A stretch of DNA of 64,000 bases from positions 1,596,612 through 1,660,611 of the forward strand of contig NC_015320.1 in the NCBI RefSeq assembly GCF_000194625.1, read 5' to 3'. Position 1 is the first letter of the stretch. Every line of letters begins with the position of its first letter. Origin of the DNA: Archaeoglobus veneficus SNP6 (GTDB lineage: Archaea > Halobacteriota > Archaeoglobi > Archaeoglobales > Archaeoglobaceae). Below, piece after piece: positions 40,085 to 54,079 of this stretch. Under the pieces are notes generated by a model, which made no database searches, had not been told where the DNA came from, and worked only from the letters and a program-made list of their open reading frames with translations. The position numbers and the translations under genes were made by a program.

Positions 40085-40373
40085 ATTTCAAAATTTGTGG
40101 ACTGGGTATATATATTTGATGAAACTACTTGTTATTATAAAATTTCGTGAAAGTGACCGTTTTTATAGAAATTTTATGCCATTATCTTTAGCAATTCAGA
40201 AAAAAGTTGACACTTTCTGATACTATTCTTGACGACATTGATAAGCGATTTGTCATAGACATAACGCCTTTTGTGAATGAATCCTGCGCGGTGCCTTGGT
40301 TGGTGGAGAGCGCGTATGTGGTGGTTGTAGGCGGGGTAAAAACCTTTCTGGAAAGACAAGGGGGTGTGGAAAG

Positions 40374-41165
40374 ATGCTAACGAGAAGGGGGTTCTTGAAA
40401 CTTGCGGGAGCATTGACTGCTGTAGCTCTGGGTATGGGGTGTGCGGAGAAAAAGCCGGAAGAACCCCGGGCTGCTACAGTGGCCACTCCAACGCCAACAC
40501 CACAACTGGAGCTACCGTGGCCGTATGTGAAACTTGACCCTGCGGTTGTTGGAGAGAAGGCCTACGAGAAGTACTACGAGCACCACTGCATGTTCGGCGT
40601 CTTCGATGCAATAGTCGACAAACTGCGTGAAAAGGTGGGCTATCCTTACACGACATTCCCGTCAGAGATGATGGTATACGGAAAGGGTGGAGTTGCAGGC
40701 TGGGCAACTCTTTGCGGAGCGTTAAACGGAGCGGCAGCGGCCATATATCTCGTCTCTAATGATCCGGATCCGATTATAAATGAGCTCTATCAGTGGTACT
40801 GCCAGGAAGAGCTCCCAGACTTTAGGCCCAAGAACCCGAAGTTCGAAATACCGAAATCGGTTTCCGGATCACCTCTCTGTCACGTTTCGGTTACTAACTG
40901 GTGCAAAGCGACTGGATTTAAGGCATTCTCTAAAGAGAGATCGGAACGCTGCGCGTGGATTACTGCATCTGTGGCAGCAAAGACGGTGGAGTTGCTGAAC
41001 GCACAGGCCGACGGAACCTTTGTACCAGCATATCCGCTGCCGGATAGAGTGAAGCAGTGCAGAGGCTGCCATGATAAGGGAAGTGCTCTGGAGAACACCC
41101 GTGGCAAGATGGATTGTACACAGTGCCACTTCAATCTTGGAGAGGAGCACCCCAAGTTCGGGTAG
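40374..41165 (+). CDS. Split-Soret cytochrome c-like protein (Tat-exported)
   Basis: A 263-residue diheme-type cytochrome. It begins with a twin-arginine signal (TRRGFLKLAGALTAVALG) ending in GMGC, which may also be lipidated, then a Pro/Thr linker (ATPTPTPQLE). The body has WATLCGALNGAAAAIYLV, SPLCHVSVTNWC and HHCMFGVFDAIV like split-Soret cytochromes of Desulfovibrio. Two heme motifs lie near the C-terminus: CRGCH at about residue 232 and CTQCH at about 250. GGGGGTGTGG precedes the ATG. Its electron partner is not known. It is followed by a T-rich terminator. Confidence 0.82.
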   Translation: MLTRRGFLKLAGALTAVALGMGCAEKKPEEPRAATVATPTPTPQLELPWPYVKLDPAVVGEKAYEKYYEHHCMFGVFDAIVDKLREKVGYPYTTFPSEMMVYGKGGVAGWATLCGALNGAAAAIYLVSNDPDPIINELYQWYCQEELPDFRPKNPKFEIPKSVSGSPLCHVSVTNWCKATGFKAFSKERSERCAWITASVAAKTVELLNAQADGTFVPAYPLPDRVKQCRGCHDKGSALENTRGKMDCTQCHFNLGEEHPKFG

Positions 41166-48821: not shown

Positions 48822-48873
48822 AAAAAGGAAAATAAAGCAATGCTTATAAGTAATGACCTGCCCCAATTCTGTA

Positions 48874-49713
48874 ATGAAGTACGCGGCCGAGAAGGCAGTG
48901 ATTGCCATTGCTGCTATTATGGGTTTTGGTATCATCGGTATCTCGCTCATTTCCATGTACAACGACTTTGTTAACGGTAAAGACCTACCGTACCTCCTTA
49001 TTGACTTCCTGTTCTTCTCATTCGGTACTGTTCTCGCGGGAGGGAGTCTGAGACTCTACAAGAGGCTGGTTATGCTGTCTGTTGTAACGGAGAGCGCCTT
49101 CGAGGATGTAATCTATGCAAGGCTGAGACCTGTTCTCGAGGAGATTGCATACGGAACTGCAGAGGTTAACGAGGTAAAGACAAGGATAGTCAACCTCGAA
49201 AAGAAGCTCGAGAAAATGGAAGAAGAGCTCGTAAGGCCAGTAGAAATAAGTGTTCCCAGTCCTGAGTCTATAGTGCTGAGAAAAACGGCATTCTACATGC
49301 GCACAGTCGTGGTGGCAATGTTCTTCTTCGGAGCATACCTCTTTCTCCTGAACTACAACCTTCCCTATGAACCGTACCTCTACACGCTTCTTTACATTCT
49401 CTGGTGGTTTTTTGTTACCAAGGAGTTCAACCTCTTCCACAGAATTGAGGCATGGGTCGTCCTTGGCATCCCGGTTCTGCTCGTCCCCGCCGGCACCATA
49501 ATACTCCGCGCTACAATCGGCCTCGTGCCCCTCATGGGTCTGATTTTCCTGACAGTCGTGCTCTACGCGTACCTGTACTATCTCTACGCAAAAACGCTGA
49601 GTGTTGAGGAGGTCGAGAAGGTTTCAACCAACGGATACAGAAGGGAGAACTTCCTGTACGCAAAAACCAAGGAAACCTGCAGAAAACTCGTAGAGTGGTT
49701 CAGAGGATTGTAG
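48874..49713 (+). CDS. Uncharacterised membrane protein
   Basis: A 279-residue protein with two N-terminal transmembrane segments (about 7-27 and 40-60), a central coiled coil (VNEVKTRIVNLEKKLEKMEEEL near residues 95-117) and five further membrane segments from about residue 140. The ATG at 48874 lies about 28 bases after GCTTATAAG, so the message is probably leaderless. No family was recognised. It is convergent with the signal peptidase gene. Confidence 0.7.
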   Translation: MKYAAEKAVIAIAAIMGFGIIGISLISMYNDFVNGKDLPYLLIDFLFFSFGTVLAGGSLRLYKRLVMLSVVTESAFEDVIYARLRPVLEEIAYGTAEVNEVKTRIVNLEKKLEKMEEELVRPVEISVPSPESIVLRKTAFYMRTVVVAMFFFGAYLFLLNYNLPYEPYLYTLLYILWWFFVTKEFNLFHRIEAWVVLGIPVLLVPAGTIILRATIGLVPLMGLIFLTVVLYAYLYYLYAKTLSVEEVEKVSTNGYRRENFLYAKTKETCRKLVEWFRGL

Positions 49714-49728
49714 CGAATAATATTATAG

Positions 49729-50436
49729 TTAGTAGCGCCTGCCGCCTCCAATCTCGAGGTAAACATACAGACTTATTGATATGATAACTATCGCCATTGC
49801 GTAGCTCTTAAACGCGTTTACCAGATTCTTGTAAAATAGATACTCCTGACCGTAGGGTCCGATGGAACGCAACTCTCTCGCATCCAGAATGAAGTACTTA
49901 CCGAAGTCTTTTATAACGACAGGCTTACCTCCAATGAGTACAGCTTCCGCTATTATGTCCTTTTTAGTTATATACCATGGATCCGGGCCGGATGCGTCTC
50001 CTCCCGTGTAGATCCTGCCGTTTTCAACTTTGAGGACTCTGTGAGTGATTGGGAGATAAACGTCGGGTCTCTTAAACATGACAATGTCTCCAGGCTGAGG
50101 GTCAATGTACAGTGCCTGAGCAAGAAACATGTCTCCTCTTTTAAAGGTGGGAACCATGCTGTCAGACGTTACGACAGCAAAGAAGAGCTTGTGTGTGAGA
50201 GTCAGCACCATGAGTAAAGCAAAAATCGAAAGTACGAGCGCTATCCTGCCGTACGGAGGTTCGCTTATTTTAGCTCTTTCAACTATCGTTTCGACTCTCT
50301 TTTTTCTTTCTCCCTTCCCCATTGCAATTCTGAAGCGCTCTATAACTGGGATTGTATATCCTTTAACAAGAAAGTACACTAAAATGATCAGGAGAAACAT
50401 CAGAACTGCAATGAGTTCGAGTACAGCAATCTGCAT
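49729..50436 (-). CDS. Archaeal type I signal peptidase (S26B)
   Basis: A 235-residue signal peptidase I of the archaeal/ER type. Two membrane segments precede the catalytic domain. The nucleophile Ser is in TSDSMVPTFKRGDMFL near residue 90, the His base in PITHRVLKVENG near 131 (His in place of bacterial Lys) and the Asp in YTGGDASGPDPWYI near 145. A last membrane segment follows near residue 212. The ATG at 50436 has AGGTGA in front of it. It overlaps its neighbour's region as the last gene of a unit that starts with the secreted protein at 52660. Confidence 0.9.
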   Translation of the reverse strand: MQIAVLELIAVLMFLLIILVYFLVKGYTIPVIERFRIAMGKGERKKRVETIVERAKISEPPYGRIALVLSIFALLMVLTLTHKLFFAVVTSDSMVPTFKRGDMFLAQALYIDPQPGDIVMFKRPDVYLPITHRVLKVENGRIYTGGDASGPDPWYITKKDIIAEAVLIGGKPVVIKDFGKYFILDARELRSIGPYGQEYLFYKNLVNAFKSYAMAIVIISISLYVYLEIGGGRRY

Positions 50437-50441
50437 GTTTT

Positions 50442-50768
50442 TCACCTGATGATGCCGAAAAAGTGCATTAACGTGCTTATGAAGATTATAGCTGCTATTA
50501 CCACCGCGAGATCTGCAATGAACCTAACGAGCTTTTTCGTGTCTTCACCGTAGTACGAAAATCCATGCTTCCAATCGACCCACTTGAGCTCCCTGTATGC
50601 TTTTTCCAGAGGGTTTAGCTCGTAATCGATGTAACCCTTCTCAATAAGCCTTTCAATAATTTTCTCGGCCAGTATAGTAGATATTCCACACTTTTTCGCA
50701 ATTTTGTCCACTCTCTTTTCGCCGAGCATAACGACTTTAAGGACGAGTTCCTCCATCTCGGAGAGCAT
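50442..50768 (-). CDS. Winged-helix/transmembrane protein, paralogue of 53516-54079
   Basis: A 108-residue protein: an N-terminal winged helix (LVLKVVMLGEKRVDKIAKKCGISTILAEKIIERLIEKGY would be its core), a short linker and a C-terminal transmembrane segment (LAVVIAAIIFISTLMHFFGII). The same order and matching residues (LERLIEKGYL, then VAMDVAIVVAALIFLLSLLYYLGII) occur in the gene at 53516. The ATG at 50768 follows GTGAGTGAG. It lies between the secreted protein and the signal peptidase. Function unknown; membrane-anchored regulator is one option. Confidence 0.7.
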   Translation of the reverse strand: MLSEMEELVLKVVMLGEKRVDKIAKKCGISTILAEKIIERLIEKGYIDYELNPLEKAYRELKWVDWKHGFSYYGEDTKKLVRFIADLAVVIAAIIFISTLMHFFGIIR

Positions 50769-50770
50769 GC

Positions 50771-52660
50771 TCACTCACGCAGGAGCATTCTTGCTATGAC
50801 CAGCGCTGCAAGCAGTGCTGCTGAACCAACCACCAGCGCTCCACCCTCTCTCGTGCTCCGCTTCTCCTGTGGAGTGGGCGTTGGCTTTGGGGCGAGCTGA
50901 CCAGTTGTTTTTGCTTTTACAAAGAACACCTTTACAAGGTTAGTTCCCGGAATTTCAACCTTGTAACTGCCCTCCTCCTCTGGCACATACTCGAAGCTAA
51001 TGCTTTTCTCTTCTCCAGTCTTAAGCATTACCTCCTCTTCGTACGCCGGTTCACCATTTACAAGGACTTTAACGACTTCCTTACCTGATTTACCCACATT
51101 CTTGACCTTGAACGAAATCATGATGGGTTCACCAGCAGTTGAAATAAACTTGTCCACGCTCAGCTCGGAGTACTGCAGTTTTGGAGGCAGAGTTATCTCA
51201 GTCGAGATCGTCACCTCAATGCCCCTGTCTATTCTGAGGTCATAGTAAGAGAAGTACAGCTCTTCAGGAGTTTTGACTTTCTTCCATCCACCTATATATA
51301 GTAGCTCTCTTTCGAGTTCCTCTCTGTAATCCTTCCAGTAAAGCGGATTGTCAACTATCAGGAATCCACCAGCATCGAAGAAGTAGCCAAGCTGCCCGAC
51401 TTTCGGCACGCTACCTCCTACGTAAATCGCAATATCGACATCCTTCAGCTCGCTGTATCCTCTGACACCCACATACTCAATGGGTGCTCCGCTATCCTTT
51501 TTAACTATCTCAAGCAACTCGGGAAGTACCTTCTCCGCTCTGCTATCGCTCCCCTCCAGCAGGGCCACTTTCGCCACTCCTGACTTGCCGTAGTGCTTGT
51601 AAAGATATGCAAGGATATTCGTGAGCATCTTCTTTGCATCTTCTCTGTTTACGTCGTATCCAGATGTCTTGAGCTTGGATATAGCACTATCAACATCAAC
51701 ATCGCTTATTTCAGATATACCCACACTCCCGAGGATGTAGTTGTTTGGAGAATACACCACAGAGCCATCTTTCACATCACCAATAAGGATTGGCCTGTCA
51801 TATAGAAGAGGTCTTACGAATACAGGCAGAGTTCTGGAAAGGACACCATTATCGGTTTTAACCTGAATCAGGTGAGTTCCGAGGGGCAAGGGAGGTATTT
51901 CGAGACTTACTACTTTCACCTCATAGCCTGAAAGCTCGACGGTTTTGGAATCAACAACCCTACCATCAACAAGAGCTTTTAGAGTTATTGTGCCCTCTTC
52001 ATCTATTTTGTTTATCACGGTAACTTTAAGGGTGTTCGATGCGCCTTCAGGAAGTGCACTCGCTTCAAGCCTCGCATCGAAGACCACGAACTGATTCGGG
52101 ATTGTGTAGGGCTTGACGTAGAAAGTAAGCCGCTTCTTGACGTAGGGAGCTTCATCCCTCGATATCGTGCCGATACTCAAATCGTACTGGCCAGAGTAGA
52201 GGATTTTATCGTACAGCTCGTTGTAGCTCTTGTACGTCGCACTGAGGTTGAGCACATCAAAAACGTAAGCATCAATTTGATACTTCCCGTTTATCCAGTC
52301 GTCTTTAACCCCTATTTCGATAACATCGTATATTTCGTCCTGATAACCGGTAACTCTCTTCTGAACGACCTTTCCATCCACGACGTAGCCTTCAGGGTCT
52401 TTTACAACAACAACAAAGTCCACAGCAGCAGCTCTGCCCCTGTTAACGTTCTCCACGCCAACGTAGAGTTTTATTGTGTCCCCCTGTTTGTAAACATTGT
52501 CCCATCTCGGAATATATTTGTCATAATCGTAAACGTATGTAACAAAGGCGACCTTAAAATCTGATTGTGAAAGGGCAAGTGACGGAGAAGAGCAAAGTAT
52601 TAGGATTATCGCGAGAATTATCAGCCTTACAGGTACTTTGAGGCGTAACCGCGGCGCCAT
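50771..52660 (-). CDS. Large secreted, C-terminally anchored protein
   Basis: A 629-residue exported protein: signal peptide LIILAIILILCSSPSLALS, beta-rich Ig/CARDB-like domains (about residues 30-300), an alpha/beta middle part (VAKVALLEGSDSRAEKVLPELLEI, then VDIAIYVGGSVPKVGQLGYFF and GGFLIVDNPLYW) resembling a Rossmann or glutamine-amidotransferase-like fold, a second CARDB-type domain (SFKVKNVGKSGKEVVKVLVNG near 500-530), a Pro/Thr linker and a C-terminal transmembrane segment (ALVVGSAALLAALVIARM). The start at 52660 lies about 27 bases after AGTATATATC, so it is leaderless and the frame further upstream is not used. Function unknown; surface protein likely. Confidence 0.75.
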   Translation of the reverse strand: MAPRLRLKVPVRLIILAIILILCSSPSLALSQSDFKVAFVTYVYDYDKYIPRWDNVYKQGDTIKLYVGVENVNRGRAAAVDFVVVVKDPEGYVVDGKVVQKRVTGYQDEIYDVIEIGVKDDWINGKYQIDAYVFDVLNLSATYKSYNELYDKILYSGQYDLSIGTISRDEAPYVKKRLTFYVKPYTIPNQFVVFDARLEASALPEGASNTLKVTVINKIDEEGTITLKALVDGRVVDSKTVELSGYEVKVVSLEIPPLPLGTHLIQVKTDNGVLSRTLPVFVRPLLYDRPILIGDVKDGSVVYSPNNYILGSVGISEISDVDVDSAISKLKTSGYDVNREDAKKMLTNILAYLYKHYGKSGVAKVALLEGSDSRAEKVLPELLEIVKKDSGAPIEYVGVRGYSELKDVDIAIYVGGSVPKVGQLGYFFDAGGFLIVDNPLYWKDYREELERELLYIGGWKKVKTPEELYFSYYDLRIDRGIEVTISTEITLPPKLQYSELSVDKFISTAGEPIMISFKVKNVGKSGKEVVKVLVNGEPAYEEEVMLKTGEEKSISFEYVPEEEGSYKVEIPGTNLVKVFFVKAKTTGQLAPKPTPTPQEKRSTREGGALVVGSAALLAALVIARMLLRE

Positions 52661-52732
52661 GTTAGCATTAACTATGGAAAGAGATATATACTTTATCATT
52701 TAAAACCACCAGCAGGTTTTTTGGTGTGATGT

Positions 52733-53509
52733 ATGCCAGTGCTTGCCATCTGTTCGGGTAAGGGCGGTGTTGGAAAGACTACTGTTTCAGCAAATTTAGC
52801 TGTTGTTCTAACACTCTTTGGTCGCGTTATCGTAATTGACAGCGACATCGCTCTTCCCAACCTCCACACATTCTTTGGTCTCGACGACCCCTTCATTTCG
52901 CTGCTTGACGTTCTGAAAGACATGGGCTACCTGAAAGATGCAATTTACGAGATAAGAGTTAAGCTGAAGGACAGCGAAGATATGGATGTCCTAAAGGAGC
53001 TCCATGTCCTGCCAGCTTCGACGTCTGTTAAGGCACTGGAAGAGATAGATATGGAAAGATTTAAGGATGTGATTGAAAGTCTCAGGAAAGATTACGACTT
53101 CGTGATAGTTGACGTGGCTGCAGGCCTCAGCAAGTATGCAATAATACCGATGCTAAGTGCTGACGCTTCCTACCTCGTTGTTAATCCCGAGAAAGCATCG
53201 ATCATCGACTCACAGAAGGTAAGGAAAATTGCAGACGTTTCGGGTGTTAGAGTGGGAGGAATAATCATCAACCGCTACAAAGGAGAAAAGAGAATGGTTG
53301 AGTACGCAGAGAACGCAATAGGAGCTGAGGTTGTGGGAATAATAAGAGAATCCAAGCTCGTGAGAGAATGCTGGGAAGATGGCATCCCCGTCACCATGCG
53401 AAAGCCCTACTCAAAGGTGGCAAAGGACTTTTACGACCTCGCAAGAAGGCTTGTTGGAGAGGATGTGGATATCAGACCGTATGGCCGACTGAAGTACCTC
53501 TTTGGGTGA
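52733..53509 (+). CDS. MinD/ParA-like P-loop ATPase
   Basis: A 258-residue ATPase of the MinD/SIMIBI class. Deviant Walker A CSGKGGVGKTT near residue 8, IDSDIALPNLHTFFGLDD near 35-53, and the switch II segment VIVDVAAGLSKYA near 122 (MinD proteins usually have D-x-P-A-G). It lacks a clear C-terminal amphipathic membrane-targeting helix. GGTGTGATGT before the ATG serves as ribosome-binding site. It is divergent from the secreted protein and followed by the second winged-helix/TM gene, so it likely acts with these proteins in positioning or assembling a membrane structure. That is inference. Confidence 0.85.
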   Translation: MPVLAICSGKGGVGKTTVSANLAVVLTLFGRVIVIDSDIALPNLHTFFGLDDPFISLLDVLKDMGYLKDAIYEIRVKLKDSEDMDVLKELHVLPASTSVKALEEIDMERFKDVIESLRKDYDFVIVDVAAGLSKYAIIPMLSADASYLVVNPEKASIIDSQKVRKIADVSGVRVGGIIINRYKGEKRMVEYAENAIGAEVVGIIRESKLVRECWEDGIPVTMRKPYSKVAKDFYDLARRLVGEDVDIRPYGRLKYLFG

Positions 53510-53515
53510 AATGAT

Positions 53516-54079
53516 ATGGATGAGAAGAAGATCATAGACGTTCTGATGGACGATGATACGTTCATTATCAAAAAGAATAGAGTTGAGACGAGCGGAAGTG
53601 CAGAAGAGTCACGACAGGGTTCGGTGGAGAGCGAGAGGCGCGTGGAAAAGAGAGAAGAGAAGGAGGAAAAGGTAGAAAAAGTAGAAAAAGGAAAAGAAGA
53701 AAGAGTGGATAAAAAGGACGTTAAAGCCGAGTACAAAGGTGAGCCGGAAATTAAAGGAAAGGATGTTTTTCTCTCAGAAATAGAGAGAAGTGTTTTGAGA
53801 AGTGTTGTTTTCGAGGCTAAAGAACCGAGGATGATTGCCCGCCTTACTGGTTATCCGGAAGTTGTAGTAAGAAAAGCTCTCGAAAGGCTAATCGAGAAGG
53901 GATATCTAACTGAAGAACTCGAGCCAACGGAGAAGGTGTCGGAAGTTAGATGGCTCAGGCCTGTGAAGGTAAGCGTGAAGTATGGAAGAAGCACGAAACT
54001 CGTGGCCATGGACGTGGCCATCGTTGTTGCAGCCCTGATTTTCCTGTTATCTCTGCTTTATTACCTTGGTATTATATAG
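53516..54079 (+). CDS. Winged-helix/transmembrane protein with charged N-terminus
   Basis: A 187-residue protein. Residues about 1-85 are a Lys/Glu-rich unstructured arm (EEKVEKVEKGKEERVDKKD); residues about 90-145 are a winged helix (SEIERSVLRSVVFEAKEPRM, then VVVRKALERLIEKGYLTEELEPTEK); a transmembrane segment follows (VAIVVAALIFLLSLLYYLGII). It is the longer paralogue of the protein at 50442 and lies six bases after the MinD-like gene. The two paralogues flank the locus on opposite strands. Function unknown. Confidence 0.7.
   Translation: MDEKKIIDVLMDDDTFIIKKNRVETSGSAEESRQGSVESERRVEKREEKEEKVEKVEKGKEERVDKKDVKAEYKGEPEIKGKDVFLSEIERSVLRSVVFEAKEPRMIARLTGYPEVVVRKALERLIEKGYLTEELEPTEKVSEVRWLRPVKVSVKYGRSTKLVAMDVAIVVAALIFLLSLLYYLGII

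Follow-up and report, generated by a model that had tools for sequence, protein, structure and literature searches.

A conserved six-gene locus of Archaeoglobus veneficus as a candidate accessory module for extracellular cytochrome nanowires

In a 64,000-nucleotide stretch of the Archaeoglobus veneficus SNP6 chromosome (hereafter the window; the chromosome is here a single contig of 1,901,943 bases), six neighbouring genes code for an S26B-type signal peptidase, a six-helix membrane protein, a secreted CARDB-domain protein, a MinD-like ATPase and two winged-helix proteins with a C-terminal transmembrane (TM) segment. Judged by its gene order and distribution, this locus is a conserved unit and no accident of one genome, and its gene set is confined almost entirely to genomes that encode subunits of extracellular cytochrome nanowires (ECNs), an association that is strong. 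Because of this near confinement to archaea with genes for wire-forming haem proteins, the module probably helps to build, anchor or place the wires. We therefore favour, with somewhat better than even confidence, the reading of the locus as the A. veneficus accessory module for ECNs, including the mechanism proposed below.

The probable cargo of the module lies outside the window. An A. veneficus open reading frame (ORF; G000:C1:75823-76584, minus strand; G-numbers denote surveyed genomes and L-numbers fetched loci) matches 8e5g_A with an E value of 1.2e-176 over 254 residues, and the available text on 8E5G describes it as AvECN, the extracellular cytochrome nanowire of A. veneficus (PMC11176372). 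In a phylum-wide sample of 392 genomes, with cut-offs of E <=1e-20 for the peptidase, <=1e-6 for the six-helix protein and <=1e-8 for ECNs, the peptidase family was found in 56 genomes, the six-helix family in 58 and the ECN family in 62. Peptidase and six-helix protein occurred together in 55 genomes, with 1 holding only the former, 3 only the latter and 333 neither; the same four figures were 55, 1, 7 and 329 for peptidase and ECN, and 56, 2, 6 and 328 for six-helix protein and ECN. Fisher values for these pairs were all below 1e-57, computed without a species tree and ignoring kinship, as are all co-occurrence values given here. The peptidase or the six-helix protein was seen without an ECN in G061, which is 68% complete, and in G293, where the match is weak, and outside Archaeoglobi 33 of 33 peptidase-positive genomes were ECN-positive. 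Even within one genus (g11), one genome (G012) has all tested parts and another (G022) has none.

Within Archaeoglobi, 59 genomes were compared, the first 40 of which formed an earlier subset. Positives were defined by E <1e-100 for the CARDB protein and E <1e-60 for a small cytochrome with 5-6 haems; seven genomes with cytochrome matches of E 8e-6 to 4e-4 only, and seven with CARDB-domain matches of E 1e-16 to 2e-4 only, were counted as negative. The two proteins were both present in 22 genomes and both absent from 34, with CARDB alone in 2 and the cytochrome alone in 1, and the exceptions (G060, G061 and G050) are 95%, 68% and 72% complete, respectively. Of the first 40 genomes, exactly those 13 with a full-length CARDB protein carry the small cytochrome.

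The linkage is also physical in other lineages. Multihaem ORFs adjoin the cluster in L046 to L051; ECN-like genes flank it in L046, L047 and L048, 5-6-haem cytochrome genes run divergently from CARDB in L046, L047, L048, L049 and L051, and in two of these, L046 and L049, the small cytochrome gene overlaps that of MinD on the same strand. About 8 kb of a single strand in L189 hold the genes for the tail-anchored MinD partner, MinD, CARDB, the six-helix protein, an 11-haem protein, the peptidase, an ECN-like protein, a lipoprotein and a small cytochrome, and L190 brings together five ECN-like genes, a 9-haem gene, and the peptidase, six-helix, CARDB, MinD and tail-anchored partner genes. Outside Archaeoglobi, 23 peptidase loci were fetched from 22 of the 33 peptidase-positive genomes, some chosen for the closeness of CARDB and peptidase and none for cytochromes except that of G032, whose nearby ECN-like genes were known before its locus was chosen; an ORF with at least three CxxCH motifs lies within 5 kb of the peptidase in 21 of the 23, the exceptions being L199 and L201. 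A surface-protein or S-layer anchoring system unrelated to cytochromes, tied to ECNs by an accident of lineage, would suit the fact that adhesins commonly carry CARDB and immunoglobulin (Ig)-like domains and that no cytochrome gene adjoins the module in A. veneficus and its nearest relatives. However, presence and absence of the module follow ECNs across several families and within genera (G012 against G022 in g11), and its genes are interleaved with cytochrome genes in other lineages, and we regard this explanation as very improbable.

The cytochrome genes themselves gave several further observations. The five ECN-like genes of L190 stand in tandem (L190:2848-7003) beside the complete module, and four of them have the same C-terminal end. 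A small 5-haem cytochrome (L086:8144-8797, corresponding to G000:C1:74143-74796, minus strand) comes immediately after AvECN and another ECN-like gene; its C-terminal end looks amphipathic, a good solved relative was not found for it (best E 0.003), and it is a possible electron feeder for the wire. A lipoprotein-like family of about 140-150 aa recurs beside small cytochrome and ECN genes (L046:7146-7583, L047:5007-5459, L050:11184-11606, L092:7517-7966 and L189:13097-13537), with no Pfam match in the one member scanned. At least three additional ECN-like loci are present in A. veneficus, at 307, 621 and 915 kb of G000:C1 (L087, L088 and L089), the last of which (L089:7106-7996) seemingly lacks the usual signal-peptide start and is perhaps decayed or wrongly called at its start. 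A genome of family f7 encodes a surface protein with PGF-CTERM, an archaeosortase substrate signal, between the small cytochrome and CARDB (L194:6787-9033). Inside the window, an open frame at 40281-41162 (+) carries two CxxCH motifs and a twin-arginine-like N-terminal signal.

The locus is laid out as follows, in window positions:

48853..49713, plus strand: six-helix membrane protein (TM4cc) with a cytoplasmic coiled coil; 286 aa; no Pfam family over cut-off
49729..50445, minus strand: S26B-type signal peptidase with three predicted TM segments; 238 aa; PF10502, TIGR02228
50442..50774, minus strand: short winged-helix protein with a C-terminal TM segment (tail-anchored); 110 aa; 3' neighbour of CARDB
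50771..52660, minus strand: secreted, C-terminally anchored CARDB protein; PF07705; likely start Met14 (start in the ORF list, 52699)
52661..52732, no strand: divergent promoter region of 72 bases, containing the TATA-like element of the CARDB unit
52733..53509, plus strand: MinD-like deviant Walker A ATPase (KGGVGKTT); 258 aa; TIGR01969 below cut-off
53516..54079, plus strand: tail-anchored MinD partner (longer winged-helix/TM protein); 187 aa; 3' of MinD

Five of these ORFs were found exactly where the initial annotation of this DNA had placed them, and the 72-base gap that it described between two divergent units holds, given a CARDB start at Met14 (ATG 52660) and a MinD start at 52733. Met14 is the better start because the 13 codons upstream of it hold a TATA-like element that is kept in six relatives. 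Each of the three minus-strand genes shares 4 bases with the next, which fits a single transcript with coupled translation, and the six-helix gene, convergent with that of the peptidase, ends 15 bases away from the peptidase stop.

Full-length CARDB protein was found in 13 of the 40 relatives and in 24 of the 59 Archaeoglobi, and all 18 matches to the long winged-helix/TM query among the 40 relatives fall in loci with full-length CARDB. Directly 3' of CARDB, the window has a winged-helix/TM gene, as do all 11 other fetched Archaeoglobi loci whose sequence continues downstream, a count that leaves out L049, which ends inside CARDB. This gene was assigned from position and alignment in L047, L050 and L051, and from position and TM end in L048, where it has no standard start codon; at the expected start of that gene (L048:10025-10189) there is no ATG, GTG or TTG, which suggests an unusual start or a shortened gene. 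CARDB, the short winged-helix/TM gene and the peptidase are contiguous in 8 of 12 loci (the window, L040, L041, L043, L044, L047, L048 and L051), while two genes intervene in L046, the peptidase is upstream in L050, and it was not found within the fetched locus in L042 and L045. The six-helix gene and the peptidase gene are convergent neighbours in the window and in all 8 of the other Archaeoglobi loci fetched that hold both, and the tail-anchored partner directly follows MinD in the window, in 9 of 9 other Archaeoglobi loci and in 2 of 2 distant complete clusters. In three genomes, pilin-like proteins with N-terminal signals of the GQL/GQT type are encoded beside the six-helix gene (L043:13317-15191, L044:4195-6048 and L050:5768-6849). 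The order is thus not unique to this genome and the genes are not scattered elsewhere; the idea of one surface-linked unit, already put forward in the initial annotation, is supported by the conserved order and strict co-occurrence, but the sixth gene at 48853-49713 (+) and the probable nanowire cargo had been overlooked.

The CARDB protein scores 44.2 bits against PF07705 (gathering score 22.7), and its AF2 model (pLDDT 83.9) shows Ig-like domains at 48-148 and 186-300, an alpha/beta domain at 305-499, the CARDB domain at 508-595, a disordered linker and a TM segment at 620-641. When the model was searched by fold, the hits were Ig/Fn3 domains and generic C-terminal glycosidase regions; among solved structures, a profile search matched the Ig parts alone. 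Neither search assigned the alpha/beta domain, and an OST48/GldG-like identity considered for it was dropped. At least 9 genomes outside Archaeoglobi have a shorter relative, lacking the middle domain, a few kb away from the peptidase. Arg637, in the C-terminal TM segment, is nearly invariant. The similar endings of the two winged-helix/TM proteins, which had been noticed before, proved to be a common TM end seen across family members, with a hydrophobic-[D/E]-hydrophobic step at the cytoplasmic side of the TM segment in all 17 long and all 19 short members; a looser scripted test, for an acidic residue at -8 to +5 of the TM window, gave the same 17 of 17 and 19 of 19. Arg637 may form a salt bridge with the acidic residue at the TM start of the winged-helix/TM proteins.

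The deviant Walker A motif KGGVGKTT is invariant in 10 of 10 MinD sequences of the cluster, and a PYGKLKY-like C-terminal end is conserved in Archaeoglobi. The A. veneficus protein reaches 185.9 bits with TIGR01969, the NCBIfam archaeal MinD model, which is under the cut-off of 201.75, and the best structure matches of the family profile are the archaeal MinD proteins 1ion, 1g3q and 1hyq. A MinC/MinE-type partner was not recognised in the fetched neighbourhoods. The tail-anchored protein encoded after MinD consists of an N-terminal motif, KKIIDVLMDDDTFI, a charged linker, a winged helix and a C-terminal TM segment. The likeliest reading is that MinD and its membrane-anchored partners act on the position or number of some structure. 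Alternatively, the tail-anchored proteins could be DNA-binding regulators, with MinD as a FleN/FlhG-like antiactivator that limits wire number through transcription. Such a circuit would agree with a winged-helix region that is TrmB/MarR-like, under curated cut-offs (22.2 bits for the short and 14.5 for the long protein, both below the Pfam TrmB cut-off of 25.6), and with the FlhG and FleN structures that the MinD family profile also matches (4v03, 7e-42; 5j1j, 1.5e-24). The FlhG matches, however, are weaker than those to archaeal MinD, and in L046, L049 and L050 the partner has lost the winged helix and retained the N-terminal acidic motif and the TM segment. The earlier view of winged helix plus TM segment as the functional core is therefore not borne out, what MinD needs is seemingly a membrane anchor and not DNA binding, and we consider the regulatory circuit improbable.

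The peptidase exceeds the curated cut-offs of PF10502 (25.8 bits; 22.9) and TIGR02228 (54.6 bits; 51.85), and S96, H135, D150 and D155 are invariant in 10 aligned sequences, the conserved Ser and His being presumably the catalytic residues of the S26B family. The A. veneficus genome has five S26-like loci, this one included, and a dedicated role is plausible because of the other four. In alignment, precursors of the ECN type have in common an unusual signal-peptide junction, LPxTxSLFxGQHxWY; a looser form of this pattern occurs in 45 of the 123 ORFs with at least three haem motifs in the given loci and is absent from the small cytochromes. In a low-confidence AF2 model (pLDDT 59), the six-helix protein has about six TM helices and lacks a large external loop, and relatives were not found in a scan of viral contigs. 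W184-W185 are invariant in nine aligned Archaeoglobi sequences.

These two proteins could also serve cytochrome maturation only, as a peptidase and a haem-handling membrane protein for multihaem cytochromes in general; the MinD and winged-helix genes would then be only loosely associated. On one side of the pair in L209 and L207 is an ECN-like gene, and on the other a 34-35-haem cytochrome and then a CcmF-type gene, CcmF lies near the small cytochrome in L192, and the idea is close to the proposal made for a peptidase/8xTMH pair of anaerobic methanotrophic archaea (ANME) in the available text of PMC9012536. This explanation does not account for the CARDB, tail-anchored and MinD genes, though they form the constant core in A. 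veneficus relatives, and the module is absent from seven Archaeoglobi with weak small-cytochrome matches only (G010, G021, G047, G048, G063, G068 and G069). A haem-handling role would normally need an invariant histidine, as in CcmC and CcmF. Such a role is disfavoured because an invariant histidine is absent from the nine aligned six-helix sequences, all from Archaeoglobi, and maturation alone seems to us unlikely, although it deserves more weight than the other alternatives.

Several results weigh against the nanowire accessory module. A multihaem ORF lies within 5 kb of only 5 of the 13 peptidase loci fetched from Archaeoglobi, and in A. veneficus itself the module lies about 325 kb around the chromosome from the AvECN genes. 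The phylum-wide Fisher values carry no tree-based correction, and in five genomes (G050, G239, G263, G305 and G313) an ECN occurs with neither the peptidase nor the six-helix protein. Around the cluster in L047, L048, L051 and family f7, no gene for MinD or its partner was seen, and since these two are not always linked to it they are perhaps not needed. A membrane-targeting helix at the MinD C-terminus is unsupported, the helical moment being not above that of shuffles in 12 of 14 sequences.

With these points in mind, we propose that the S26B peptidase, probably with the six-helix protein, would cut ECN precursors at the conserved junction and free the subunits for polymerisation. The CARDB protein would stand between membrane and S-layer by means of its single C-terminal TM segment, and would anchor or scaffold the base of the wire together with the small 5-6-haem cytochrome, which may feed electrons to it. 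On the cytoplasmic side, the tail-anchored winged-helix proteins would sit next to the CARDB protein. The MinD partner would recruit the ATPase through its acidic N-terminal motif, and the ATPase would cycle on and off the membrane and decide the place and number of assembly sites, as MinD4 does for archaella. A broader and more tentative suggestion, which we hold to be possible but doubtful, is that nanowires have a conserved assembly apparatus of their own, with a licensing peptidase that cuts the junction, an Ig-repeat anchor, and MinD with its partners setting site and number, such that these electron conduits are spatially organised in the way of archaella and pili.

If this is true, a MinD ATPase tied to electron-conducting filaments would mean that spatial control reaches beyond motility and pili into extracellular respiration. 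The work also provides a short list of co-inherited genes common to Archaeoglobi and to families resembling methane oxidisers, the names of these families being inferred. Literature searches, with Baquero 2023 (Cell) outside their reach, did not find the MinD/CARDB part or the link to ECNs; the peptidase/membrane-protein pair beside ANME cytochromes is already known, and the nanowire link of these genes may likewise be in print.

Comparison with known systems places the module among several partial parallels. In ANME, a signal peptidase and an 8xTMH gene stand beside a giant S-layer cytochrome and CcmF, and the pair is reported also in Geoglobus and Ferroglobus, with haem handling suggested, according to the available text of Chadwick 2022 (PMC9012536). 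The window pair is very likely related to it, because L209 has the same gene order: ECN-like gene, peptidase, membrane protein, giant S-layer cytochrome (a 35-haem ORF with a PF07752 S-layer domain) and CcmF-type gene (PF01578), an arrangement of relatives and not of the window. The family distribution is likewise consistent with the groups named in the accessible part of that paper. The ANME protein is described there with eight TM helices and a tryptophan-rich external loop, whereas about six TM helices are predicted here from the low-confidence model; the pair here also comes with CARDB, MinD and tail-anchored genes and with ECNs, and in A. veneficus no cytochrome lies beside it. The closest precedent with experimental tests is that of Haloferax, where loss of MinD2/MinD4 misplaces archaella and chemosensory arrays, as the available text of PMC11588486 reports. 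Both there and here, a MinD-family deviant Walker A ATPase is thought to place a surface machine, but the A. veneficus protein is tied to a cytochrome wire module and not to motility genes, has a dedicated tail-anchored partner, and falls below the NCBIfam archaeal MinD cut-off. The predicted cleavage step has a counterpart in SipW-TasA of Bacillus, where a dedicated S26B-type signal peptidase serves extracellular filament subunits; here, in contrast, the subunits would be multihaem cytochromes, and CARDB, MinD and six-helix parts are added. FlhG/FleN and TadZ/CpaE are ATPases that set the number or place of flagella and Tad pili and, like the protein described here, are MinD-family ATPases encoded beside surface-filament genes, although FlhF, FleQ and Tad genes were not recognised in the cluster and the partner here is tail-anchored. 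Set beside these systems, and with its mechanism as a proposal, the A. veneficus module may be seen as a filament accessory set with a MinD-family ATPase, here for electron-conducting wires.

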